From: Gordonia bronchialis DSM 43247 | Lineage (GTDB): Bacteria > Actinomycetota > Actinomycetes > Mycobacteriales > Mycobacteriaceae | Assembly (NCBI RefSeq): GCF_000024785.1 | Contig: NC_013441.1 | Location: 434,001 to 498,000 of the forward strand | Reading direction: 5' to 3' | DNA length: 64,000 bases | In this document: positions 1,367 to 17,178 of the stretch, one piece after another | Layout: every line of letters begins with the position of its first letter | Numbering within the stretch: the first letter of the stretch is position 1 | Program-made: the position numbers and the translations under genes | The notes under the pieces: generated by a model | The model's database searches: none | Seen by the model: only the letters and a program-made list of their open reading frames with translations | What the model was told of the DNA's origin: nothing

Positions 1367-3085
1367 TCAGCGCAGGAAGGTGGCGGCGTGTTCGGTGAGG
1401 TCGAGGAGCGGCTGGGGGAACACGCCGAGGGCGATGGTGACGACGGTGCAGACGGCGATGCCGGTGGTGGTGAAGATGCTCGGTTTCACCACGTGCGGGG
1501 CGTCGACGGGGACGTCGTGGAAGAACATGGCGACGATGATGCGGACGTAGAAGTAGGCTGCGATGGCGCTGCTGATGACGCCGATCACCACCAGCACACC
1601 CCCGCCGGTGCCGGCGACCGCGGCGAACACGTCGAACTTGGCGATGAAGCCACTGGTGAGCGGGATGCCGGCGAAGGCCAGCAGGAACATCGAGAACATC
1701 GCGCCCACAAGGGGATAACGTCTTCCGAGGCCCGCCCACTGGGACAGGTTGGTGGCCTCGCGGCCGGACAGATGCGGACTGCGCGACACCGGGAGCCGTG
1801 CCTGCTGGCCGTGGCTGATCTGCGAGCGCAGGGAGGTGGGATTGTCTGCGGCGGTGTTGTCCGGCTCGCGGACCACGGCGATGGTCGCAAACGCGCCGAG
1901 CGTCGAAAAACCATAGGCGGCAAGGTAGAACAGCGTGGCGGCCAGCCCGGCGTCGTCGAAGGCGATGACGCCGAGCAGGATGAAGCCGGCGTGCGTGATC
2001 GAGGAGTACGCGAGCATGCGTTTGACGTCGGTCTGGGTGACCGCCATGACCGCGCCGACGAGCATCGTCGCGATCGCCACCGCCCACAGGGCCGGCTTCC
2101 ACTGGTCGTGCAGTGCCGGGAACGCCACGTAGAACACGCGTAGCAGCGCGCCGAAGGCGGCGATCTTGGTGGCCGCGGCCATGAACGCGGTCACCGGGGT
2201 GGGAGCGCCCTGATAGACGTCGGGAATCCACGCGTGGAACGGGACGGCCCCCACCTTGAACAGCAATCCCACCGCCAGCATGCCGAGGCCGATGAGGGCA
2301 AATGTGTTGTCGCCACCGGATGCGGTGGTGGCGGTGACCGATTCGCCGATGCGTGACAGGTTCAGCGAACCGGATGCACCGTAGGCCAAGGCTGCGCCGA
2401 AGAGGAAGAAGGCCGACGAGAAGGCGCCCAGGAGAAAGTATTTGAGTGACGCCTCCTGGGAGATGAGGCGCCGGCGTCGCGCCAATCCGCACAGCAGGTA
2501 CAGCGGCAGGGAGAACACCTCGAGTGCGATGAACATCGTCAGCAGGTCGCCACACGCCGGGAACAGCATCATGCCGCCGACGGTGAGCATCGTCAGCGGA
2601 AAGACCTCCGTGGTCACCGCCCCGGCGCGGGTGGCCTCGAACTCCGCCTCGGTGTTGGGTACCGACGCGCCCGACGGGGTGAACATGTCGGCGTCGGTGC
2701 CCGCGCCGGTACCGACGGTCTGAAGCGCGGGCGCGACAACGCGTTCGAGTCGGCGTTCGGCCATGAACGCGACACCGGCGACGGCGACCAGCAGCAGGAG
2801 TCCCTGGAGGAATAGTGCAGGACGGTCGACGACGACGGCCCCCGACATCGCGAACTGTCCATCGCCGCCGGAACTCTCGGAGTCGGCGACCGCGACGAGC
2901 GCTGCGAAGGCGGCGACCAGACCGCCGAGCGAGAGCACCACCTGTGCCGGGTAGCGGACCTTGCGGGAGGCGAAGGCCTCCACCAGCACGCCGACGACAC
3001 CGACGCCGAAAACGATGAGCATCGGTGACAGCGCAGCATATTCGACGCTGGGTGGGGTGATGGCGGCGAGCGCGCTCTGGGTCAT
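1367..3085 (-). CDS. nuoN: NADH-quinone oxidoreductase subunit N
   Basis: Antiporter-like membrane subunit of complex I that helps couple quinone reduction to proton translocation. The 572-residue protein carries the proton-translocating module signature (HAWIPDVYQGAPTPVTAFMA around residues 284-303, with conserved Lys and Glu residues in membrane helices). It is the last gene of the 14-subunit operon and overlaps nuoM by four bases (ATGA). It is somewhat longer than I expect for mycobacterial NuoN. About 34 hydrophilic residues (roughly 408-441) sit between two helices just before the conserved EATNLSQWAGLGRR segment and look like an insertion. Repeats lie immediately downstream. Confidence 0.96.
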   Translation of the reverse strand: MTQSALAAITPPSVEYAALSPMLIVFGVGVVGVLVEAFASRKVRYPAQVVLSLGGLVAAFAALVAVADSESSGGDGQFAMSGAVVVDRPALFLQGLLLLVAVAGVAFMAERRLERVVAPALQTVGTGAGTDADMFTPSGASVPNTEAEFEATRAGAVTTEVFPLTMLTVGGMMLFPACGDLLTMFIALEVFSLPLYLLCGLARRRRLISQEASLKYFLLGAFSSAFFLFGAALAYGASGSLNLSRIGESVTATTASGGDNTFALIGLGMLAVGLLFKVGAVPFHAWIPDVYQGAPTPVTAFMAAATKIAAFGALLRVFYVAFPALHDQWKPALWAVAIATMLVGAVMAVTQTDVKRMLAYSSITHAGFILLGVIAFDDAGLAATLFYLAAYGFSTLGAFATIAVVREPDNTAADNPTSLRSQISHGQQARLPVSRSPHLSGREATNLSQWAGLGRRYPLVGAMFSMFLLAFAGIPLTSGFIAKFDVFAAVAGTGGGVLVVIGVISSAIAAYFYVRIIVAMFFHDVPVDAPHVVKPSIFTTTGIAVCTVVTIALGVFPQPLLDLTEHAATFLR

Positions 3086-4689
3086 CGCGGTCCTCCCGGG
3101 GGCGAGTCGGCTACGGCGGGTGGGGGATCATGCACCCCGACGGTGGTCAAGGTGTGCCCGACCGCCGGATCGACGATGTCCAGCAGGGGTTTTGGATAGA
3201 CGCCGAGCGCGATGAGCAGAGCGATCAGTGGAACCACCACCACCAGTTCACGTCCGGCGAGGTCACGCATCGACGAGGCGCGCACGTCAGACAGCTTCGG
3301 CGGGCCGCCCATCATCCGCTGGTAGGTCCACAGGATGTAGATGGCGGACAACACCAGTGCGCCAGAGGCGATGATCGCGGCGATCGGGTAGCGGGTGAAC
3401 GTGCCGATCAGCACCAGGAATTCGCTGATGAACGGGGCAAGACCGGGCAACGACAGCGTCGCCAGGCCCGCGACGAGGAACGTTCCGGCCAGCACCGGAG
3501 CGACCTTCTGTACACCGCCGTAGTCGGCGATGAGGCGGCTTCCTCTCCGCGACACCAGGAATCCGGCGATCAGGAACAGCGCGGCCGTCGACAGGCCGTG
3601 ATTGACCATGTACAGCGTCGAGCCGGTCTGGCCCTGGCTGGTGAGCGCGAAGATGCCCAGGATGATGAACCCGAAGTGTGAGATCGAGGTGTAGGCGATC
3701 AGCCGCATGACATCGGTCTGCCCGATGGCGAGCACGGCGCCGTAGATGATGCCGATGACGGCCAGCGCGCAGATGAGCGGCGCGAAGTACTGCGACGCAT
3801 CGGGAAACAGTTGCAGGCAGAAGCGCAACATCGCGAAGGTGCCGACCTTGTCGACCACCGCCATCATCAACACCGCGCTGGCCGGGGTGGCCGCCACCGC
3901 GGCGTCGGGCAGCCACGAATGGAACGGCCACAGTGGCGCTTTGACCGCGAAGGCGAACATGAAGCCGAGGAACAAGAGCTTCGCCAGGCCGGTGCCGGAG
4001 TCGATGTCGCCGGCGGCCACCGCGTCGGAGATGGTGCGCAGTGAGAAGGTGCCCGCACCGTTGTGACCGACCCCCTGCTGCACCGTCACCACATACAGGC
4101 CGATGACTGCGGCCAGCATGATCAGCCCACCGAACAGGTTGTACAGCAAGAACTTCACTGCTGCGGCGGATCGTCGGGGCCCGTTGCCGAAGCCGCCGAT
4201 GAGGAAGTACATCGGGATCAGCATGGCCTCGAAGAAGATGTAGAAGAGCAGGATGTCGAGGGCGACGAAGCTCATCAGCACCATGGCCTCGACCGCAAGG
4301 GTGAGCGCGAAGTAGGTGTGTGGCGTCTTCTGCACGCGGCCGCCGGCTGCGTCGAGCGATCCGGCCTCGTCGGCGTCGCGCCACCCGGCGAGGATCAGCA
4401 GCGGCAGCAACGCGGCGGTGAGCAACACCAGGACCAGACCGATCCCGTCGAGCCCCAACGCGTATCGGGTGCCGAAAGCGGGTATCCAACTGTGGTCTTC
4501 GACGAACTGATAGCGCGCACCGTTCGGGTCGAATCCGACGGCGAGGCCGATCGCGAGTACCAGGACGAGCACGCTGACGGCGAGAGCGATGTCCTTGGCG
4601 ATCTCCGGGCGCCGGTTGGGGATTGCCAGCACCAGTAGCGCACCGATCGCCGGGGCGACCCACAGAATCGTCAACCATGGTGTGTTCAC
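3082..4689 (-). CDS. nuoM: NADH-quinone oxidoreductase subunit M
   Basis: Second antiporter-like membrane subunit of complex I (535 residues, about 14 hydrophobic helices). Family signatures include the helix with the conserved Glu ([17 protein letters not shown]) and the quinone/antiporter core segment [20 protein letters not shown] followed by [14 protein letters not shown] 4689 overlaps the nuoL stop by four bases and the gene's own stop overlaps nuoN, which indicates translational coupling. It is of ordinary length with no missing landmarks. It works with NuoL and NuoN as the distal proton pumps. Confidence 0.97.
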
Positions 4690-6635
4690 AGCACATTCAC
4701 CACCATCACGAGAGCCGTGATCACCGCGGCACCGGCGAACATGGACAGTGCGTAGGACCGCACGTAGCCGCTCTGCCAGCCGCGTATTCGCTCCGACAGC
4801 CCGGCGATCCCCGCCCCCACCCCGCTGGTGAGACCGTCGACACCGGAGTTCTCCACCTCCACCAGCCCGGCGGTGACGTGCTGCCCGGGACGCATCAGCA
4901 GGGCCTCGTTGGCGGCGTCACCGTACAGGTCGCGGCGAGCGGCGACGGTGAGCGCCGAGACGTCGTCGGGCGCGATCTCCGGGACCGCGCGGGTGGCGTA
5001 CTGCCAGTAAGCGATTCCCACCCCGACGGCCACGACGACGAGGATGATCACGGTCATCGCCCACACCGGTATCCCGAGTTCCGCGTGATCTTCACCGGTG
5101 ACACCGGCCCCGCTCGCTTCGCTCCCGGCGGCCACAACAGGCTCCAGCCAGTGTTCCAGCGCCCCACCGAAAGCCAGGAAGAAGCCGGAAGCTACCGATC
5201 CGATCGCGATGAGCACCATCGGCGCCGTCATCACCGACGGCGACTCATGCGGATGCGGCGCGGGGGCGTCGGTGCCGTCGTGCCAGCGCTTCTCGCCGAA
5301 GAACGTCAGGATCACCACCCGGGTCATGTAGAAGGCGGTGATGCCGGCACCCAGCAGGGCGGCGCCACCGAGCAGCAGACCCTTGACCCCGCCGGAGGCG
5401 AACGCCACCTCGATGATGTGGTCCTTGGAGTAGAAGCCGGCAAACGGCGGCACCCCGATGATCGCGAGATAGCCGACGCCGAAGGTGATGAATGTGATCG
5501 GCATGAGCTTGCGCAGACCGCCGTAGCGGCGCATGTCGGTCTCGTCGTTCATCCCGTGCATCACCGACCCGGCGCCGAGGAACAGCCCGGCCTTGAAGAA
5601 GCCATGCGTGAGCAGGTGCATGATGGCGAATGCGTAACCGGCAGGCCCCAACCCGGCCGCGAGCACCATGTAGCCGATCTGACTCATCGTCGACGCGGCG
5701 AGAGCCTTCTTGATGTCGTCCTTCGCGCAGCCGATGATCGCGCCGAACAGCAGTGTCACCGCCCCGACCACCACCACACCGACCTGCGCGTGTGGGGCGA
5801 GATCGAAGATGGGTCCGGACCGGACGATCAGATAGACGCCTGCGGTCACCATGGTGGCGGCATGGATGAGCGCCGACACCGGGGTGGGGCCCTCCATCGC
5901 GTCGCCCAGCCACGACTGCAGCGGCACCTGCGCCGACTTGCCGCACGCCGCGAGCAACAGCATGAAACCCAGTGCGGTGAGCGTGGTCTCGCCCGCCTGA
6001 CCGGCGCCGTCGAAGACCGCGGTGAACGACACCGCCCCAAAGGTGGCGAACATGATCATCAGCGCGATCGCCAGTCCGATGTCGCCGACGCGGTTGACCA
6101 CAAACGCCTTCTTGGCGGCGGTGGCCGCACTCGGCTTGTACTGCCAGAAGCCGATCAGCAGATACGATGCCAGGCCAACACCCTCCCAGCCCAGGTAGAG
6201 ACCGAGGTAGTTGTCGGCCAGGACCAACACGAGCATGGCGGCGAGAAACAGGTTGAGGTAGGCGAAGAATCGCCGCCGGTCGGGGTCGTCGGCCATGTAG
6301 CCGATGGAGTAGACGTGGATCAGCGACCCGATACCGGTGATCAGCAGGACGAAACACATGGACAGCTGGTCGAGCTGAAACCCGAAGTCCACGTGCAGTT
6401 CTGCGACGGGAATCCAGGTGAACAGGGTGTGGCTCACGGCGCGCTCGTCGGTCGACCGGGACAGCATCCCGACGAACATGACCAACCCCAACACAAAGGA
6501 GGCGAGGGCCAGCGCCGTGCCGAGCAGGTGGCCCCACCGGTCCGAGCCGCGGCCGGCAATGAGCAGCACCACCGCACCGAGCAACGGCAAACCGGGCAAC
6601 AACCAGAGCAGTGACGCCGTCTGATCGATGGTCAC
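4686..6635 (-). CDS. nuoL: NADH-quinone oxidoreductase subunit L
   Basis: Largest antiporter-like subunit of complex I (649 residues), which carries the long lateral helix in its C-terminal third. Landmarks are the N-terminal [14 protein letters not shown] helix, [16 protein letters not shown], and the core segment [20 protein letters not shown] with [10 protein letters not shown] region rich in Ala, Gly and His (about residues 455-520) separates the core from the C-terminal helices. The start ATG lies 16 bases after the nuoK stop, the widest gap in this part of the operon, with GGAGG-like bases in between. The end overlaps nuoM by four bases. Confidence 0.97.
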
Positions 6636-6651
6636 CGGGCCTCCTAATCCC

Positions 6652-6951
6652 TCACCGTTTCAACAGATCCGCGTCGTCGACAGACGCCGACCGTCGGGAC
6701 CGGAAAATCGTCATGATGATGGCCAGCCCGACGACCACCTCCGCGGCGGCGACCACCATCGTGAAAAAGGCGATCACCTGACCGTCGTACGATCCGTGCA
6801 TGCGGGCGAAGGTCACGAACGACAGGTTCGATGCGTTGAGCATCAGCTCGACGCACATGAACACCACGATCGCGTTGCGGCGCAGCAGGACCCCAGCGGC
6901 GCCGATGGTGAACAGCAACGCCGAGAGATACAGATAGTTCTCCGGATTCAT
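6652..6951 (-). CDS. nuoK: NADH-quinone oxidoreductase subunit K
   Basis: A small three-helix membrane subunit (99 residues, the usual size) with the conserved membrane Glu residues in [15 protein letters not shown] and in [12 protein letters not shown], which form part of the central proton channel. It begins [20 protein letters not shown] and overlaps nuoJ by four bases, as expected for this operon. Nothing is unusual. Confidence 0.97.
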
Positions 6952-7757
6952 CGCTGCACCTCGTCGGAGGCAGGTGGGGTGGTGGGGTTCGAGGACGGGT
7001 CGATACGCAGACCCAGATCGTGGTCGCGGGTCACCAGGGTGGCGTTGACCGACAGCCGGGCCGGTGACCCGTCGGGCAGCCGCGCGGGCACGTCGACGGC
7101 ATTGTGCCGGGCATACACGCCGGGGCTGGGCAGCGGCGTCATGTCGATGCCCTGACGGAACCGCGCCACCGACAGTTCGCGCTGACTCATGCGCGGGCCG
7201 AAGCGTTCCCGGTGCGCAAGCACCATCGCACCGAGTGTCGCGGTGATCAGCAGGGCGCCGGTGAGTTCAAAAGCCCACAGGTACTGCACGAAGATCAGTT
7301 CGGCGATCGCCTCGACGTTGCCGTCGCCGGCCGTGCTGGAACCACCTGCCGCGGGTGCGCCGGCGAAGGTGGCCACACTCGCGGTACCGATACCGGCGAT
7401 GAGCAGGATGCCGAAGCCCAGCCCGATGACCGCAGCCGCCAACCGCTGTCCCCGAAGGGTTTCGACGAGCGAATCCGACGAGTCGACGCCGATCAGCATG
7501 AGCACGAACAGGAACAGCATCATCACCGCGCCGGTGTAGACCACCACCTGCACGACGCCGAGGAACAGCGCCCCCTGCGCGACATAGAAGATCGCCAGGA
7601 TGATCATGGTGGTGGCCAGGAAGATGGCCGAATACACGGCCTTGGTGGCGAAGACGACGCCGAGCGCGCCGAGGACGGCCACGCCGCCGAGCACCCAGAA
7701 CTGCACGGCCTCACCGGTGGAGGTGCGGGTCAGTTCGGCGGCCAGCAGCGCCGTCAT
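6948..7757 (-). CDS. nuoJ: NADH-quinone oxidoreductase subunit J
   Basis: Membrane subunit with five N-terminal helices (269 residues). Signatures are [17 protein letters not shown], the pi-bulge helix that switches during turnover, and the preceding LGVVQV segment. The hydrophilic C-terminal tail after about residue 195 ([20 protein letters not shown] onward) is typical of the longer actinobacterial NuoJ. The start overlaps nuoI and the stop overlaps nuoK by four bases each, so the order I-J-K is tightly coupled. Confidence 0.96.
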
Positions 7758-8281
7758 CGGGGTGCCACCTGGCCGTCGGGGGTGATCTCGCCGCGGTAGT
7801 AGTTCTCCTCGGTGGAACCGGGCGCCATCGCGTGCGGGGGTGGCTGCGCGTCGTCGGGCATCGGGGCGAGCAGACGGTCCTTCTCATAGATGAGGTCGGC
7901 GCGGTTGTCGTCGGCGAGTTCGTAGTCGTTGGTCATCGTGAGAGCACGGGTGGGACAGGCCTCGATGCACAGGCCGCAGCCGATGCAGCGTAGATAGTTG
8001 ATCTGGTAGACGCGGCCGTATCGTTCACCGGGAGAATAACGTTCGTCGTCGGTGTTGTCGGCGCCCTCGACGTAGATGGCGTCGGCCGGGCATGCCCACG
8101 CGCACAACTCGCAGCCGATGCACTTCTCGAGCCCGTCGGGATGGCGGTTGAGCTGGTGGCGACCGTGATAGCGGGGGGCGGTGGGTTCCTTCTGCTCCGG
8201 GTACTGCTCGGTGATGGTCGGGGAGAACATCCCGCTGAAGGTGACTCCCAGTCCGCTGACCGGCTTGAGGAAATCAGGCAT
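7754..8281 (-). CDS. nuoI: NADH-quinone oxidoreductase subunit I
   Basis: Peripheral subunit holding the two 4Fe-4S clusters N6a and N6b that pass electrons towards NuoB. Both CxxCxxCxxxCP motifs are present: [18 protein letters not shown] and [16 protein letters not shown]. The protein has 175 residues; the C-terminal Pro-rich tail ([20 protein letters not shown]) is typical of actinobacterial forms. The start overlaps the nuoH stop by eight bases and the end overlaps nuoJ by four. Confidence 0.97.
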
Positions 8282-9575
8282 CGGTCATCTCCTTGTGTGT
8301 CGGGGGTTTGCTCCCGGACGGGCGGGTGGCCACCTGGCCGGGCAATGGCGGCACCGGGAACCCGCCGGCCATCGGGTCGAACGTCTCACCGGCCGAATCG
8401 ATCTCGTCGGGCTGATCGGGCAGTCGCATGGACCGCCAGATGGCGTAACAGATGAGTGCGGTGACGACGATCCCGGCGCCGGCCGAGATGAGCGCGCGGG
8501 TCAGCTCGCTCGCGTCGGTGGTGGCCGCGCGGATGACGGCGACCACCATCACCCAGGCCAGCGAGATCGGGATGAGGACCTTCCACCCGAGATTCATGAA
8601 CTGGTCGTAGCGCAGCCGGGGCAGGCTGGTGCGCAGCCAGATGAACACGAACATGAAGACCCAGACCTTGAGGGTGAACCAGAGGATCGGCCACCAACCG
8701 GAATTGGCCCAGTCGAAGGCGCTCAACGGCCACGGCGCCATCCATCCGCCGAGGAACATCGTGGTGGCCAGCGCCGACACCGTCACCATGTTGATGTACT
8801 CGGCGAGCATGAACATCGCGAACTTCAACGACGAGTACTCGGTGTGGAAGCCACCGACCAGCTCGCCCTCGGCCTCCGGCAGATCGAAGGGCGCACGGTT
8901 GGTCTCGCCGACCATCGAGATCGCGTAGATCACGAAGGACGGCAACAGGATCAGCACGTACCAGTGCCGGTCCTGGGCGGCGACGATCCCCGACGTGGAC
9001 ATCGTCGTGGCGTCGAGGAACATGGCGGCAAAGGTGAGGCCCATCGCGATCTCGTAGGAGATCACCTGTGCCGTGGACCGCAGACCGCCGAGCAGCGGAT
9101 AGGTGGAGCCCGATGACCAGCCGGCCAGCACGATGCCGTACACACCGATCGAGGTGATGGCCAGGACGTAGAGAACTCCGACGGGAAGGTCGGTGAGCTG
9201 CAACGGGGTTCGATGACCGAAGACCGAGACCATCGGGCCGAACGGGATCACCGCGAACGCCATCACCGCGGGTACCACCGCGATGATCGGTGCCAGCACG
9301 TAGATGATCTTGTCGACGCCGCTGGGGATGATCCCTTCCTTCAGAGCGAGTTTCACACCGTCGGCAAGACTTTGCAGCGCACCGCGCGGGCCGACCCGGT
9401 TGGGACCGATGCGCGATTGCATGCGCGCCATGATCTTGCGTTCCAGCAGGATCGCGACCAGTGGGTTGGCGACGAGGAAGGCGAAGACCGCGACCGCCTT
9501 GATCAGGATCAGCCACCAGGGATCGTGGCCGAAGTCGGCAAGGGTGGGGAAGTCGGCGGCGAGTGGTGCGGTCAC
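8274..9575 (-). CDS. nuoH: NADH-quinone oxidoreductase subunit H
   Basis: Membrane subunit at the quinone-binding chamber (433 residues, eight predicted helices). Diagnostic segments are [20 protein letters not shown] near the N-terminus and [20 protein letters not shown], whose acidic residues line the quinone site. The C-terminal extension after about residue 370, rich in Pro and polar residues, is usual for mycobacterial-type NuoH. ATG 9575 overlaps the nuoG stop by four bases. Confidence 0.97.
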
Positions 9576-11971
9576 CGGACACCTCCGGCGGGGGAGAGGG
9601 CCACCAGGTCGCCGGCCCGGGCCCGCAGGTTCGGGTACACCTGGGAGCCGGGTGAATTGGTAGGCACCCAGACGACGCGGTCGGGCATGTCGGTGATGGC
9701 GACCGGCAGGGCGATGCTGCCGTCGGTGGTGGAGATCCGCAGATCACCGCCGTCGGCGACACCGGCCTCCGCGGCGGTGGTCGCGGAGAGGCGGGCCACG
9801 GGGCGACGCGCGGTGCCGGCGAGGTGGGGTTCGCCGTCCTGCAAGCGGCCCAGGTCGAGCAGTTGGTGCCAGGTGGCCAGTACGGCCTGCCCGGATGCCG
9901 GTGCCCGTGACGGTTGCGCCGCTACCCGGTCGATCAGCGGACGATGTCCGGTCCAGGCGCCGATCCGGCTCAGATCCAGATGGATCGTTTCGGGGGTGTC
10001 ACACCGCAATTCGACGTCGAGCCGGGCGGCGAGCGCATCCAGGACCCGATGGTCGGCGAGGTGCCCGGTGTCGGCGAGGGCCGTGGTGAAGGCCCGGGGC
10101 CGGCCCTCCCAGTCGACATAGGTGCCGGACTTCTCCGGGACGGCCGCGACCGGGAACACGACGTCGGCGAACCGCGTGACGCTGCTGTGGCGCTGTTCGA
10201 GGCTGATCACGAAGGGTGCGGCCTCCAGTGCGGCAGCGGCATCGGCCGGATCGGGTAGGTCGTCGAGGTCGACGCCACCGACCAGCAGCGAGAGGCCATG
10301 GTAGCGGGCAGCTTCCAGGATTCCGGCGGTGTCGCGGCCGGGCTGCGCGGGCAGTTCGTCGACGCCCCAGGCGGAGCAGATCTGGGCGCGGGCATCGTCG
10401 TCGGCGACGGGCCGCCCGCCCGGCAGGATCCCGGGCATTGCGCCCACCTCGAGGGCGCCACGCTCACCCGCGCGCCGCGGAATCCAGGCGAGGCCGGCAC
10501 CGGTCCGGGCGGCGAGATCAGCGGCCGCACGTAGCGCCCCGGGAGAGCCGGCGAGTCGCTCGCCGGCGAGGATGACCGAGCCGCGTGCGGAGACCGCGTC
10601 GGCAACGGCGTCTGCCGCGAGATGATCGGCTTCGGCGCCGGGGGTGGTGTAGAGGATCAGACCGTCGAGTTTGGTAAGACCGCGAGAAGCGAACGGCGCC
10701 AGCGCGTACACCTTCTGCCCGGCGGTGCGGACCGCACGCCGCAGCCGCAGGAACACGATCGGCGACTCCTCTTCGGGTTCGAAACCGACGAGCAGGACCG
10801 CGGGAGCCGCGGACAGGTCATCGTAGGTGATGCGCATCGGCGACCCGGCGACCACCGCGCCGAGGAACTCGGCCTCTTCCGCCGAATGCGGCCGGGCGCG
10901 CAGGTCGATGTCGTTGGTGCCGAGCACCGTTCGCGCGAACCGGGAATAGGCGTAGGCGTCCTCGACGGTGAGCCGGCCCCCGGTGAGCACCCCGGTGCCG
11001 CGGGCGGCGTCGCGAATCCCCTGGGCCGCGGCGCCGAGGGCCTGCGCCCACGACACCTCACGGAGGTCACCGTCGCGGTGGCGCAGCAGTGGCGAGGTGA
11101 TCCGGTCGGCGGACGTCGTGTAGGTGAACGCCCAGCGACCCTTGTCGCAGTTCCACTCCTCGTTGACCTCCGGATCGTCGCCAGCCAGGCGCCGCAACAC
11201 TTTTCCGCGTCGATGATCGGTACGCTGCGAACAGCCGCTCGCGCAGTGTTCGCAGACGCTGGGCGTGGAGACGAGATCGAAGGGGCGCGCCCGGAATCGG
11301 TAGGCGGCGCCGGTCAGCGCGCCGACCGGGCAGATCTGCACGGTGTTGCCGGAGAAGTAGGAGTCGAAGGGCTCGTCGGCGTAGATGCTGACCTGTTGCA
11401 GCGCACCGCGATCGGCGAGTTCGATGAGCGGGTCGCCGGCCACCTGGGTGGAGAACCGCGTGCAGCGGGCGCAGAGGACGCAGCGCTCACGGTCGAGTAG
11501 GACCTCTGACGACAGCGGAACCGGCTTGGTGAAGGTGCGTTTGATGCCGTCGAAACGGGACTCCGAGCGTCCGGTGGACATCGCCTGGTTCTGCAGCGGG
11601 CATTCGCCACCCTTGTCACACACCGGACAATCCAAGGGATGGTTGATGAGCAGCAGTTCCATGACGCCGCGTTGCGCCTTCTCGGCGACCTCGGAGCTGC
11701 GCTGGGTGTGGATGATCATGCCGTCGGCGACGGTGGTGGTGCACGATGCCAACGGTTTACGCTGTCCCTCCACCTCCACGAGGCACTGTCGGCATGCGCC
11801 GACCGGGTCGAGCAGCGGGTGATCGCAGAACCGGGGGATGGTGACGCCGATCTGCTCGGCGGCCCGAATGATCAACGTGCTCTTCGGGACCCGCATCTCC
11901 TGGCCGTCGATGGTGATACCGACGAGGTTGTCGGCCTCGGTGGTGGGCTCGTTGCCGTGGGTGAGGGTCAT
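9572..11971 (-). CDS. nuoG: NADH-quinone oxidoreductase subunit G
   Basis: Iron-sulfur subunit of the electron-input arm (799 residues). The N-terminal ferredoxin fold has the 2Fe-2S cysteines ([15 protein letters not shown]...C). The His-Cys3 motif lies in [19 protein letters not shown], and the next cluster motif is CVLCARC...CPVGAL. The extra N7 motif CEHCASGC...C is retained as well. A molybdopterin-oxidoreductase-like domain fills the C-terminal half, apparently without molybdenum chemistry as is usual for NuoG. ATG 11971 overlaps the nuoF stop by four bases. Confidence 0.97.
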
Positions 11972-14088
11972 CGCTGACCTCCCTGCGATCCGCTCCCTGA
12001 GGTGCGAGCGAAGCGAGCCTCGAAGGGACAGCCGCTCGCCAGGTGGGCGTCGTACTCGTCGCGGAAGTATTTCAGGGAGGAGACGATCGGGCTGCCCGCG
12101 CCGTCACCCAGGGCGCAGAACGACTTGCCGACGATGCTGTTGGTGACGTCGGCGAGGGTGTCGAGGTCGGCGGTGGTGCCGCCCTCGGTTTCCAGTCTCT
12201 TCAGTAGTTGCACCAGCCAGTAGGTGCCCTCGCGGCAGGGGGTGCATTTGCCGCAGGATTCGTGGGCGTAGAACTGCGTCCAGCGCAGCACCGCCCCCAC
12301 CACACAGGTGGTCTCGTCGAAGATCTGTAAAGCCTTGGTGCCCAGCATCGATCCGGCGGCACCCACGCCCTCGTAGTCGAGCGGGACGTCGAGGTGCTCG
12401 GCGGTCAGCAGCGGCGTCGATGACCCGCCCGGTGTCCAGAACTTCAACTGATGTCCGGCCCGGACGCCGCCGGCGCGGTCGAGGAGCTCACGCAGGGTGA
12501 CGCCGAGCGCGGCCTCGTACTGTCCCGGACGTTCGACGTGTCCGGACAGCGAGTACAGCGTGAATCCGGGTGACTTCTCGGTGCCCATCGACCGGAACCA
12601 GTCGACGCCGTTGCGGATGATCGGCGGCACGCTCGCAATGGATTCGACGTTGTTGACCACCGTCGGGCTGGCATAGAGACCCGCTACCGCGGGGAATGGT
12701 GGCCGCAGCCGGGGCTGCCCACGCCGGCCCTCCAGGGAGTCGAGCAGCGCGGTCTCCTCTCCGCAGATGTAGGCGCCGGCACCCGCATGCACCACCAGCT
12801 CGAGATCGAAACCGGAGCCGAGGATGTCACGACCCAAATAGCCTGCGGCATAAGCGTCGTCGACGGCGGTCCGCAGCCGACGGATCACCGAGGCAACCTC
12901 CCCGCGGACGTAGATGAAGGCGTGGTGCGCCCGGATCGCGTAGGCGGCGATGATCACGCCTTCGACCAGCGAATGCGGGCTCGCCAACATCAACGGCATG
13001 TCCTTGCAGGTACCCGGCTCGGACTCGTCGGCATTGACGACGAGGTAGTGCGGTGGGGCGTCGGGATCGTCGGATTGGGGTATGAACGACCACTTCATCC
13101 CGACCGGGAATCCTGCGCCACCGCGGCCACGTAGGCCCGAGGCCTTGATGAGTTCGATGATGTCGTCGGGTGGGGTGTCGAGGGCCTTGCGCAGACCCTG
13201 ATAGCCGTTGTGCTGCAGGTAGTTGTCGAGGGTCCAGGAGTCGGGCTCCTGCCAGTGGCGGGAGAGGACGGGGATGGTTTCCGGCTCTGCGGCTTGGGTG
13301 GTGGGGGTGGTTTGGTTGCGGGGCCCTTCGAGGCTCGTCGCTAGCGCTCCCTTCGAGGCTCGTTCCTCGCTCCTCAGGACGGCGCCTCGCACCTCAGGGA
13401 GCGTAAGGGGGCTCGTTGGGCCCTCGGGCAGACCCGCGAGAGTACGCGCCGTCTGCCGGAAGGAGCAGAGGCTACCGGTACCCCGGGATGGTTCGGTGGG
13501 TACGCCGGCGCGCAGGTCCTCGACGAGTTCGATGGCGGTGTCCGGGGTTTGGTTGTCGAAGAACTCCCAGTTGACCATCACGACGGGGGCGAAGTCGCAG
13601 GCGGCGTTGCATTCGACGTGTTCGACGGTGATGCGGCTGTCGGCGGTGGTGTCGCCGGGGTCGATGCCGAGATGCTCACACACCGATCCGAGGATGTCGT
13701 CCCCGCCGAGGGTGGCGCACAGGGTGTTGGTGCACACTCCGATGAGGTATTCGCCGGTCGGGTTGCGGCGATACATGGAGTAGAAGGTCGCGACCGAGGC
13801 CACCTGTGCGGCGGTGAGATCGAGTTGGGCTGCGCAGAAAAGGATTCCGGCGCGGGTGATGAACCCGTCCTCGGACTGTACGAGATGCAGCAGCGGGAGA
13901 AGGGCAGAACGTGATTGGGGATAGCGGGCGATGATGGCGGCGGCCTCGGCGGCGAGGCGTTCGTGGACATCCGGCGGGTACTCGACCGGACCGTCGAAGG
14001 TGATCGTCGGCGCCGGCGCGGGCAGGGTCGGGGCGGGCCGCTCGACCGGCGGGTCCACGCTCAGCTCGACGAATACGGGTTCGCTCAT
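11968..14088 (-). CDS. nuoF: NuoE-NuoF read as one 706-residue frame (24-kDa and 51-kDa subunits of complex I)
   Basis: One uninterrupted frame covers two subunits that are separate genes in mycobacteria. Residues 1-220 are NuoE, with 2Fe-2S cysteines C119, C124, C160 and C164. Residues about 266-706 are NuoF, with the NADH/FMN loop GRGGAGFP (321-328) and the 4Fe-4S cysteines C612, C615, C618 and C658. The joint (about 225-262) is encoded by repeat family B DNA, and neither a NuoE stop nor an ATG for NuoF is present; a GTG at V233 is the only plausible internal start. ATG 14088 overlaps nuoD (ATGA). The C-terminal tail is also repeat-encoded. Either a real fusion or a one-base error hides the boundary; the NuoF part starts near 13295 and NuoE ends near 13420. 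Confidence 0.85.
11988..12028. repeat. Dispersed repeat family B, copy 1, inside the nuoF 3' end
   Basis: CGCTCCCTGAGGTGCGAGCG and AGCGAGCCTCGAAGGGA match, in reverse orientation, the DNA between the NuoE and NuoF modules at 13322-13406. Here the element encodes the last residues of NuoF (around [14 protein letters not shown]), a tail I would not expect in homologues. Confidence 0.7.
13322..13406. repeat. Dispersed repeat family B, copy 2, joining nuoE and nuoF
   Basis: Contains CCCTTCGAGGCTCG twice, 26 bases apart, followed by GCACCTCAGGGAGCG. The reverse complement of the copy at 11988 aligns with both halves. The segment supplies the linker codons that fuse the NuoE and NuoF frames. In the other two minus-strand frames it carries stop codons, so a single-base change on either side would separate the genes. 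Confidence 0.75.
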
Positions 14089-15425
14089 CGGTCCACCCCT
14101 CCCATCACCGGGTCGATGCTGGCTACGGCGGTGATGACGTCGGCCACCATGCCGCCCTCGCACATCGCCGCCACCGCTTGCAGATTGGTGAACGACGGGT
14201 CGCGATAGTGCACCCGGTACGGGCGGGTGCCGCCGTCGGAGACCATGTGCACGCCGAGTTCCCCGCGCGGGGATTCCACCGCCACATAGCACTGGCCGGC
14301 GGGCACGCGCATGCCCTCGGTCACCAGCTTGAAGTGGTGGATCAACGCCTCCATCGAGGTACCCATGATGCGGGCGATGTGCTCCGGCGAGTTCCCGAGA
14401 CCGTCGGGCCCGAGGGCCAGGTCGGCCGGCCAGGCGATCTTGCGGTCGGCCACCATCACCGGTCCGGGCCGCAGCCTCTCCAGACATTGGCGCACGATCT
14501 TGATGGATTCGCGCATCTCCTTGACCCGAATCAGGTAGCGGCCGTACGAGTCACAGGTGGTGTCGGTGATGACGTCGAAGTCGTAGTTCTCGTATCCGCA
14601 GTACGGCTGCGACTTTCGCAGATCATGCGGGAGGCCGGTGGACCGCAGGACGGGTCCGGTGATGCCCAGCGCCATGCAGCCGGTGAGGTCGAGGTATCCG
14701 ACGCCCTGGGTGCGTGCCTTCCAGATGTAGTTGTCGTTCAACAGGTCCCCGAGTTCGTCGAGGCGTCCGGGCAGGATCTCGAGCACCTCGGCCACCTTGT
14801 CGACCCCGTCGGACGGGAGGTCCTGTGCGACCCCACCGGGCCGGATGTAGGCATGGTTCATGCGTAGTCCGGTGATGAGCTCGAAGAGGTCGAGGATCAT
14901 CTCGCGTTCGCGGAACCCGAGGAACATCGCGGTCACCGCGCCGAGTTCCATCCCGCCGGTGGCCAGTGCCACCAGGTGGGAGGTGATGCGGTTGAGTTCC
15001 ATCATCATCACCCGGATGACGGTGGCGCGCTCGGGGATGTCGTCGGTGATGCCGAGCAACTTCTCCACACCCAGGCAGTACGCGGTCTCGTTGAAGAACG
15101 GCGACAGATAGTCCATCCGGGTCACAAAGGTGACACCTTGCGTCCAGTTGCGGAACTCGAGGTTCTTCTCGATCCCGGTGTGCAGGTAGCCGATTCCGCA
15201 GCGGGCCTCGGTGACGGTCTCGCCCTCGATCTCCAGGATCAGGCGCAACACCCCGTGGGTGGAGGGGTGCTGCGGTCCCATGTTGACCACGATGCGCTCG
15301 TCGCCGGGCTGTTGTTCGGCGCGGGTGCGGACGTCGGAGACGATCTGTTCCCAGTCCTGCCCGGTCACGGTGTACGTGCGGGTCGCCTTGGGACCGGGCG
15401 CATGCCCGGTGGTGGTGTCGGTCAT
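14085..15425 (-). CDS. nuoD: NADH-quinone oxidoreductase subunit D
   Basis: The 49-kDa subunit of complex I, which forms the quinone-reduction site with NuoB (446 residues). Signatures are [20 protein letters not shown] and [12 protein letters not shown] in the N-terminal half, then the hydrogenase-like large-subunit fold ending [11 protein letters not shown]. The N-terminal 40 residues before VVNMGPQHP are the usual actinobacterial extension. ATG 15425 shares one base with the nuoC stop (TGATG) and the end overlaps nuoE by four bases. Confidence 0.97.
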
Positions 15426-16108
15426 CAGTTGTAGGACCTCCGACGATCCGGGGGAGCCACGCGGGTTCCCTTGTATTCCACCGGAACCCCACCCAGCGGA
15501 TAGTCTTTACGCTGCGGGTGACCCTCCCAGTCGTCGGGCATCTCGATGCGCGTCAGGGAGCGGTGGCCGTCGAAGATGATGCCGAAGAAGTCGTAGGTCT
15601 CGCGCTCATGCCAGTCGTTGGTGGGGTAGATGTCGCAGATGCTCGGAATGTGCGGATCCGCGTCGGGCGCAGACACTTCCAACCGGAGTCGACGTTTGTG
15701 GGTGATGGATGTCAGCGGGTAGACGGCGTGGAGTTCGCGGCCGGCGTCATCGGGGTAGTGCACCCCGTTGACGCCGAGACACAACTCGAAGCGCAGGTCG
15801 GGATGGTTGCGCAGCAGCAGGGCTACTTGCCGTAGATGGGTCCGGCTCACGTGCAGTGTCATCTCGTCACGGAAGACGACGACCTTCTCGATCGCGTCGG
15901 AGTAGTCGTCGGAGAGTTCGGTCTCCAGGAGATCGGCAATCTCGTCGAAGTAGCTGCCGTATGGGCGGGAACTGTTGGCGTCCAGGGTGATCGGTGCGAT
16001 GAGGCCGCCGTATCCGGAGGTGTCGCCGGTGCCGAGGGCGCCGAACAAGCCGTGTCGGACGCCGATGACCTCGGGATCGTCGGGGGAACCATCGCGGGGG
16101 CCGGTCAT
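15425..16108 (-). CDS. nuoC: NADH-quinone oxidoreductase subunit C
   Basis: The 30-kDa subunit of the peripheral arm (227 residues). The diagnostic segment [20 protein letters not shown] is followed by [20 protein letters not shown] near the C-terminus. The frame is open further upstream to 16576, but ATG 16108 gives a four-base overlap with the nuoB stop, matching the rest of the operon, and matches the usual N-terminus. It is separate from NuoD here, unlike in E. coli. Confidence 0.95.
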
Positions 16109-16659
16109 CGCAGCAGCCCCTTCATCTCGATCGTCGGGGTGGCCTGCAGGGCGGCGCGTTCGGCGGCCCAGATGGCCTCGTCGCGGTTGACGCCGAGCGG
16201 CATCTCCTGGATCTTCTCGTGCAGTTTGAGGATCGCGTTGAGCAACATTTCCGGGCGCGGCGGGCAACCGGGCAGGTAGATGTCGACGGGCACCACGTGG
16301 TCGACGCCCTGCACGATCGCGTAGTTGTTGAACATGCCGCCCGACGAGGCGCAAACTCCCATCGCCAGAACCCATTTCGGCTCGACCATCTGGTCGTAGA
16401 TCTGCCGCAACACCGGAGCCATCTTCTGGCTGACCCGCCCGGCGACGATCATCAGGTCGGCCTGTCGGGGTGATGCGCGGAAGGCCTCCATGCCGAATCG
16501 GGCCAGGTCGTAGCGTCCGGAGGTGGTGGCCATCATCTCGATGGCACAGCAGGCGAGCCCGAACGTGGCCGGCCACAGCGACCCTTTGCGCATGAACCCG
16601 GCGAGCTCCTCCACGGTGCTCAGCAGGAATCCGCTGGGAAGTCTTTCCTCGAGTCCCAT
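16105..16659 (-). CDS. nuoB: NADH-quinone oxidoreductase subunit B
   Basis: Holds cluster N2, the last iron-sulfur centre before quinone (184 residues). The tandem cysteines of [20 protein letters not shown] and the later CASSGG and [10 protein letters not shown] cysteines are all present. AAGGAGGT lies just upstream of ATG 16659, the strongest ribosome-binding site in the operon. A 43-base gap separates it from nuoA. Confidence 0.97.
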
Positions 16660-16702
16660 CGCGTACCTCCTTGCCGTGGTTGATAAGTCGCGTCCCCTCC
16701 GG

Positions 16703-17125
16703 TCAGTCCCAGCTCAAACCCCCGCGTCGCCACTCGTATGCGTAGGCGACGGAGACGTTGACGATGAACAGCGTCATGGCGAGCAGACCGAACCAGCCCA
16801 GGGCGTCGAAAGCGACCGCCCAGGGGTAGAGGAAGACGATTTCTATGTCGAAGATGATGAACAGCATCGCGGTCAGGTAGTACTTCACCGGCACCCGGTG
16901 GACCGGGCCGGTGACCACCGCGCCGGCGCTGCGTTGGCGGGCGCCCGACGACGCGACGCTCGTCGACACCAGGCTCTGTTCGACGGGTTCGATCCCGCAT
17001 TCGTACGGCTCGAGTTTCGCGCGGTTGTACCGCTTGGGGCCGATGGCGACCGCGATGAACACCGAGAACACCGCGAAGGCCGCACCGATCGCCCCCAGCA
17101 CCATGATCGGTACGTAAGCGTTCAT
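16703..17125 (-). CDS. nuoA: NADH-quinone oxidoreductase subunit A
   Basis: Three-helix membrane subunit and first gene of the operon (140 residues). Landmarks are [11 protein letters not shown] and [20 protein letters not shown], with the conserved acidic residues near the quinone tunnel. A hydrophilic insert between helices ([20 protein letters not shown]) makes it longer than the usual 120-odd residues. ATG 17125 is preferred over the upstream frame extension because GGGGAGG lies before it and MNAYVPIMV begins directly in the first helix. Confidence 0.96.
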
Positions 17126-17172
17126 AGGCGGATGGCCTCCCCGTAGCCGAGGCTGTTGTGAGCTACACCACA

Positions 17173-17178
17173 AGCCTA
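17173..17178 (-). promoter_or_regulatory. Candidate -10 element of the nuo operon
   Basis: TAGGCT on the minus strand, about 48 bases before the nuoA start, is the best TANNNT match in the gap before nuoA. No convincing -35 is visible at 17 bases. The transcript would have a leader of about 40 bases with a good ribosome-binding site. Confidence 0.4.

Follow-up and report, generated by a model that had tools for sequence, protein, structure and literature searches.

The stretch analysed here, called the window, comprises 64,000 nucleotides of Gordonia bronchialis DSM 43247 (NC_013441.1, positions 434,001 to 498,000), and on its minus strand a single open frame of 706 codons runs from an ATG at 14088 to a TGA at 11968-11970 through both nuoE and nuoF. 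Very probably, this gene makes one NuoEF polypeptide which unites the two subunits at the NADH-oxidising tip of complex I and which was born by a frame change at the overlap of two formerly separate genes; the fusion looks real and repeatedly evolved, rather than the result of a sequencing mistake. Judged by its sequence, the product would be translated as one chain and assembled into complex I. An earlier reading made from the letters of the window alone (the sequence-only reading) had described an uninterrupted frame of this length, without stating its strand, in which all cluster cysteines are kept, and both statements are borne out by the features below. While the mechanical open reading frame (ORF) call extends further upstream into nuoD (839 amino acids), the ATG at 14088 forms an ATGA with the overlapping stop codon of nuoD.

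11968..14088, minus strand: fused nuoE-nuoF gene, 706 amino acids, a single open frame with NuoE and NuoF models above curated cut-offs
13513..13941, minus strand: NuoE domain (2Fe-2S thioredoxin-like ferredoxin), residues 50-192; PF01257, E 1.2e-45; invariant C119, C124, C160 and C164
12043..13266, minus strand: NuoF part (flavin mononucleotide, NADH, 4Fe-4S), residues 275-682; TIGR01959; invariant C612, C615, C618 and C658
13300..13419, minus strand: linker, predicted disordered, residues 224-263; pLDDT below 50 in the model, no in-frame ATG

The frame spans a complete NuoE domain and a complete NuoF part. Pfam places 2Fe-2S_thioredx (PF01257) at residues 50-192, Complex1_51K (PF01512) at 314-488, SLBB at 514-558 and NADH_4Fe-4S (PF10589) at 600-682. 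The NCBIfam NuoF model TIGR01959 scores 632 bits over residues 275-682 (cut-off 559) and the NuoE model NF005721 332 bits over residues 35-223 (cut-off 308), while the broader NuoE model TIGR01958 falls narrowly below its cut-off (135.5 vs 142.4 bits); on other fused proteins tested, the latter gave 149.2, 141.0 and 125.1 bits. The eight cysteines are all present and invariant in an alignment of 73 fused proteins, and we take the four of the NuoE domain to be ligands of cluster N1a and the four of the NuoF part to be ligands of N3. NuoE carries cluster N1a, which lies off the main electron path. At E ≤ 1e-20 the genome itself gives one match, and hence no further copy of NuoE or NuoF.

An AlphaFold model, built on an alignment of 73 fused sequences, has a pTM of 0.86, a mean pLDDT of 81.6 and two ordered modules, with residues 224-263 below 50. 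The top Foldseek match of this model is 8e9g_F, NuoF of mycobacterial complex I (TMt 0.89), and further down follow HoxF 5xf9_A (rank 27, 635 columns, TMt 0.80, root-mean-square deviation (rmsd) 7.5 Å, 28% identity) and 7xqw_B, the beta subunit of Methylorubrum extorquens formate dehydrogenase 1 (FDH1; rank 31, 648 columns, TMt 0.83, rmsd 5.2 Å, 29% identity). Both modules of the model probably join in the alignments with 5xf9_A and 7xqw_B, since the aligned columns exceed the NuoF part alone and TMq is higher (0.65-0.66 vs 0.56).

Fused and split genes in relatives

Junctions were read in the 54 Gordonia genomes that carry nuoE and nuoF on a single contig: 26 are fused and 28 are split. G011, with nuoE and nuoF at the ends of two contigs, is left out of these counts. 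Four further, nearly complete genomes of the genus (G009, G016, G070 and G079) gave no NuoE/NuoF match at 1e-60; they are unclassified and may have lost this complex I. In a sample of the family, 314 of 401 genomes matched at 1e-200 and at least 49 full-span stop-free matches were found, of which Gordonia accounts for 13 and seven other genera for 36; most split genomes of this sample are unverified by sequence, and the full-span criterion may miss fusions with long linkers. All 36 fetched full-span loci of the seven other genera are fused. Named examples of the fusion are Rhodococcus oryzae, Rhodococcus sp. SMB37, Rhodococcus sp. OK519, Tomitella cavernea and Tsukamurella sp. PLM1, and two genera are entirely fused among the genomes listed with a match (g74, 12/12; g78, 4/4). 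An order-wide search of 249 genomes gave, among the matches listed, 11 full-span matches outside the family, each of which carries one or two stops and was therefore scored as split. The Pfam domains of NuoE and of NuoF are present together in all of the 120 best protein matches listed, many of which bear the plain name NuoF; this proportion is no frequency, as the ranking favours fused proteins. Fused at 62% identity is also P0110, which stands for a cluster of 811 sequences.

Split genes have a characteristic junction. In all 28 split Gordonia the nuoF start and the nuoE stop have 4 nt in common (ATGA or GTGA), and an equal overlap is found in 62 of 104 split loci outside Gordonia. The loci of Mycobacterium, Mycolicibacterium, Nocardia and Streptomyces among 80 named ones are all split, mostly with the 4-nt overlap. 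The premise of the sequence-only reading that NuoE and NuoF are separate in mycobacteria holds for the Mycobacterium and Mycolicibacterium loci, but the host is a Gordonia, a genus in which fusion is common. In five split actinobacterial loci (L077, L079, L084, L085 and L088) nuoF starts directly after nuoE in the same frame with an overlap of 0, so that a stop codon is the sole separator.

The comparison of nuoE-nuoF in relatives, which had been proposed as a check, shows the fusion to recur in 25 further Gordonia genomes and in the 36 loci of the seven other genera. The same recurrence bears on the alternative that a sequencing or assembly error, or a frameshift private to one strain, has given two genes the appearance of a single one; the sequence-only reading had worded it as a one-base error in the repeat at the joint. 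The joint can be hard to assemble, because it contains repeats and because in G011 the two genes sit at the ends of different contigs. The fusion in all these relatives nevertheless contradicts an error, and so does the near-identical P0002, the nearest database cluster representative (27 sequences, 6 contigs), which likewise has 706 residues and keeps the frame while differing at four positions (237, 266, 530 and 700), with the substitutions at 237 and 266 falling between the domains. Moreover, the passage of the genome report which states the error rate gives less than 1 error in 100,000 bases for the finished G. bronchialis genome (PMC3035257). On relatives, P0002 and this error rate the explanation by error was rejected, and it retains practically no credence. 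The reading as a genuine NuoE-NuoF fusion with a repeat-derived joint is supported.

The linker, its start codons and its repeat

In the window no in-frame ATG lies between the cores of NuoE and NuoF, in agreement with the earlier statement that the usual NuoE stop and an ATG for NuoF are missing at the joint, and the single GTG, at residue 233, falls inside the repeat without a Shine-Dalgarno match upstream. Start codons in the linker are of interest for a second alternative, in which one frame yields two proteins, either because NuoF is made also or only by internal initiation or because the chain is cut in the disordered linker. It draws on the length and the predicted disorder of the linker, on the GTG at residue 233 and on the in-frame linker ATG of 17 of the 62 fused loci. 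Against it stand the position of this GTG and its missing Shine-Dalgarno match, the 45 fused loci with no in-frame ATG in the linker and the overlapping starts of the split Gordonia, 24 of 28 of which have a Shine-Dalgarno-like match of at least 4 nt, as scored by a crude matcher without chance control for which lengths above 4 are unreliable. Two separate products are, on balance, distinctly unlikely.

A single NuoEF chain is in line with the lengths of the linker. The window belongs to a clade of 14 fused members and no split ones, whose linkers have 12 distinct lengths between 59 and 186 codons; hence at least 11 length changes kept the frame, as expected if NuoF is made only via NuoE. Tandem units in the linkers of two loci (L035 and L012) have periods of 21, 24, 30, 39, 66, 72 and 90 nt, all multiples of 3. 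Two split Gordonia, G035 (L026) and G020 (L023), show a repeat-like, longer C-terminal tail of NuoE, 112 and 48 codons past the core respectively, so the NuoE tail can lengthen with or without fusion.

The linker of the window harbours arms of a dispersed repeat, a further copy of which codes for the end of the protein.

13324..13403, no strand assigned: dispersed-repeat arms in the linker (13324-13337, 13349-13362 and 13385-13399); repeat matches, in frame at about residues 230-255
11991..12027, minus strand: repeat copy in opposite orientation which codes for the NuoF C-terminal tail; inverted matches I2, I6 and I10, exact copies

Exact copies of the arm CCCTTCGAGGCTCG number 7 in the 5.29 Mb genome, with 3 inside the nuoE-nuoF gene, and copies with at most one mismatch number 17, compared with 2 for a reversed-letter control; GCTCGCACCTCAGGG has 11 exact copies and 17 with at most one mismatch (control 1) in the same genome. 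The repeat arms exceed chance expectation. Of 59 Gordonia genomes, 16 contain an exact 19-mer of the repeat, against 0 control matches. Copy numbers go up to 47 in G006 and 31 in G002, and several copies follow each other in tandem at intervals of about 30-37 nt; in G006, a sister genome, the repeat also lies within the nuoEF linker. The 16 carriers comprise 14 fused genomes, the split G076 and the unclassified G011, an association which is no independent evidence because most of the carriers are closely related. The idea that the repeat caused the fusion was rejected, since 12 of the 26 fused genomes of the genus, G015, G022, G008, G062 and G005 among them, lack an exact 19-mer altogether. 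For this reason the repeat is read as a passenger that lengthened the linker, and the order would have been fusion first and repeat insertion later. The earlier claim that the joint, residues about 225-262, is repeat-encoded thus holds in so far as the arms lie in frame inside these residues, whereas the repeat is unnecessary for the fusion.

The glutamate synthase large subunit (L269 1-1887; in the genome of the window C1 about 2007000-2008886, minus strand) contains tandem 33-nt copies of the nuoEF repeat, in frame, located between GATase_2 and Glu_syn_central and with a peptide unit like SHARTSGNGNG. A distant blastn search for a phage source of the joint, with 181 bases, gave no match. The nuo genes are unmentioned in the passages considered of PMC3711429, a paper found via literature on Gordonia repeats and the fusion of overlapping genes.

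Origin of the fusion

The fused gene probably descends from two translationally coupled genes in which the stop of nuoE and the start of nuoF shared 4 nt (ATGA or GTGA). Through a net frame change there, nuoF would have come into the frame of nuoE and the stop would have been lost, and a flexible linker would be tolerated because the NuoE and NuoF domains dock on each other in the enzyme anyway. The linker would then have shifted in length by whole codons, in the window with the inclusion of the dispersed repeat.

On a tree of the NuoE and NuoF cores with 121 rows, which holds four named duplicates (L075, L076, L078 and L081) so that its 66 fused rows represent 62 genomes, the fused and split states need 10 changes (bootstrap 10-11, starred branches force 8), with a minimum of 4 within Gordonia. 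A smaller NuoE/F tree (68 rows), superseded by the former, had given 8 changes overall and 4 in Gordonia. The rpoB tree requires at least 5 changes (bootstrap 4-6) among 52 of the 54 Gordonia genomes, G014 and G074 being without an rpoB match at the cut-off and the rpoB of G023 being partial.

Several observations weigh against a single chain with this history. The starred branches of the rpoB tree force only 1 change, the 4-change solution in Gordonia includes one fission, and parsimony gives no direction, gain or loss, to any of these changes. Outside Gordonia, three of the fused genomes have low completeness values (G314 66%, G534 75% and G477 83%). None of the 62 fused loci is free of in-frame ATG, GTG and TTG codons in the searched stretch, and a Shine-Dalgarno-like stretch precedes some of the in-frame linker starts. 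With regard to the structure, residues 446-463 inside the NuoF part also have a pLDDT below 50, the alignment behind the model consists of fused sequences only, and Foldseek gave no ranges for the matches 7xqw_B and 5xf9_A with their rmsd of 5.2 and 7.5 Å. Finally, cleavage of the chain or separate initiation of its downstream part would also be compatible with the sequence.

As parsimony leaves the direction unfixed, the fusion might also be old in the family and the split state the result of repeated fission, in accordance with the presence of fused genes in eight genera. However, each of the 28 split Gordonia shows the 4-nt overlap in the homologous position, where fissions would have had to produce it anew, and the named loci of Mycobacterium, Mycolicibacterium, Nocardia and Streptomyces are split, mostly with the overlap. 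An old fusion is therefore unlikely, and the split state is probably ancestral, because repeated fission would need to rebuild an identical 4-nt overlap every time. Origin of the fusion by frame change at the overlap can be extended to a more far-reaching proposal, which we put forward only tentatively: NuoE-NuoF fusion may be a convergent, selectively kept trait of the family that arose several times at the 4-nt overlap, provides a strict 1:1 ratio of the N1a (2Fe-2S) and flavin subunits and has in its linker an in-frame landing place for mobile repeats.

Operon context and known systems

The fused gene directly adjoins nuoD and nuoG in the following series of genes.

15425..17173, minus strand: nuoA, nuoB and nuoC (starts of nuoA and nuoC provisional); NCBIfam NuoA, NuoB and NuoC above cut-offs
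14085..15425, minus strand: nuoD; TIGR01962, 600 bits, cut-off 459
14085..14088, minus strand: ATGA overlap of nuoD stop and nuoE start (ORF end 14085, start 14088)
11968..11971, minus strand: ATGA overlap of nuoF stop and nuoG start, from ORF coordinates and sequence
9572..11971, minus strand: nuoG; NF005895, 1330 bits, cut-off 802
1367..9575, minus strand: nuoH to nuoN (8274-9575, 7754-8281, 6948-7757, 6652-6951, 4686-6635, 3082-4689 and 1367-3085); NCBIfam NuoH, I, J, K, L, M and N above cut-offs

With nuoA, B, C and D and nuoG to N all present above cut-offs, the operon encodes a complete complex I. Fusions of complex I subunits are already known as a kind, as the model names NuoCD and NuoBCD indicate, while a fused NuoE-NuoF in a complex I operon is not described in the literature passages considered, which does not establish its absence from print. 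Closely related fused and split species form a natural series with which the role of the NuoE/NuoF subunit boundary becomes testable, and they offer an example of a 4-nt overlapping gene pair that repeatedly turns into one gene. They also carry a warning, as database entries named NuoF of about 660-780 amino acids, for instance among the 120 listed matches, are NuoE-NuoF fusions.

With respect to its repeat, dispersed and in frame in two unrelated genes, nuoEF and that of the glutamate synthase large subunit, the system resembles the Rickettsia palindromic elements, which a passage of PMC10969869 describes as dispersed repeats in frame inside genes. The likeness is one of placement; the Rickettsia elements are about 150 bp long, compared with arms of 14-19 nt here and a 33-nt tandem unit in the glutamate synthase gene.

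With respect to the protein, the comparison leads to mycobacterial complex I: chains E and F of 8e9g are the top-scoring solved sequences listed for the respective halves (8e9g_F 780.6 bits, 8e9g_E 292.8 bits) and belong to the same families, but they are two chains, whereas the Gordonia protein is one chain with a linker. NuoCD and NuoBCD are likewise fusions of neighbouring hydrophilic-arm subunits, for which NCBIfam has models named C/D and B/C/D; they involve other subunits, and a model named E/F is absent from the printed NCBIfam results, and fused proteins among the listed protein matches go by the name NuoF. The aligned chain 7xqw_B, which we take to be a natural NuoE-NuoF-like fusion, is part of a formate dehydrogenase and not of complex I.

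The same layout, NuoE-like and NuoF-like domains in one chain, is found in HoxF of the NAD-reducing [NiFe] hydrogenase, and a passage of PMC2216082 describes for the HoxF clade that the 24-kDa modules are fused with their 51-kDa modules. Membership of the window protein in this clade was rejected, as its best models are NuoF and NuoE and the HoxE model reaches only 95 bits (cut-off 224); a HoxF model is not listed among its NCBIfam results, and no hydrogenase genes lie beside the fused gene. The likeness to HoxF that the sequence-only reading had pointed out accordingly extends to the layout of both domains in one chain and to the 635-column alignment, while by family the Gordonia protein, which passes the complex I NuoE and NuoF models and sits between nuoD and nuoG, belongs to complex I and not to HoxF.

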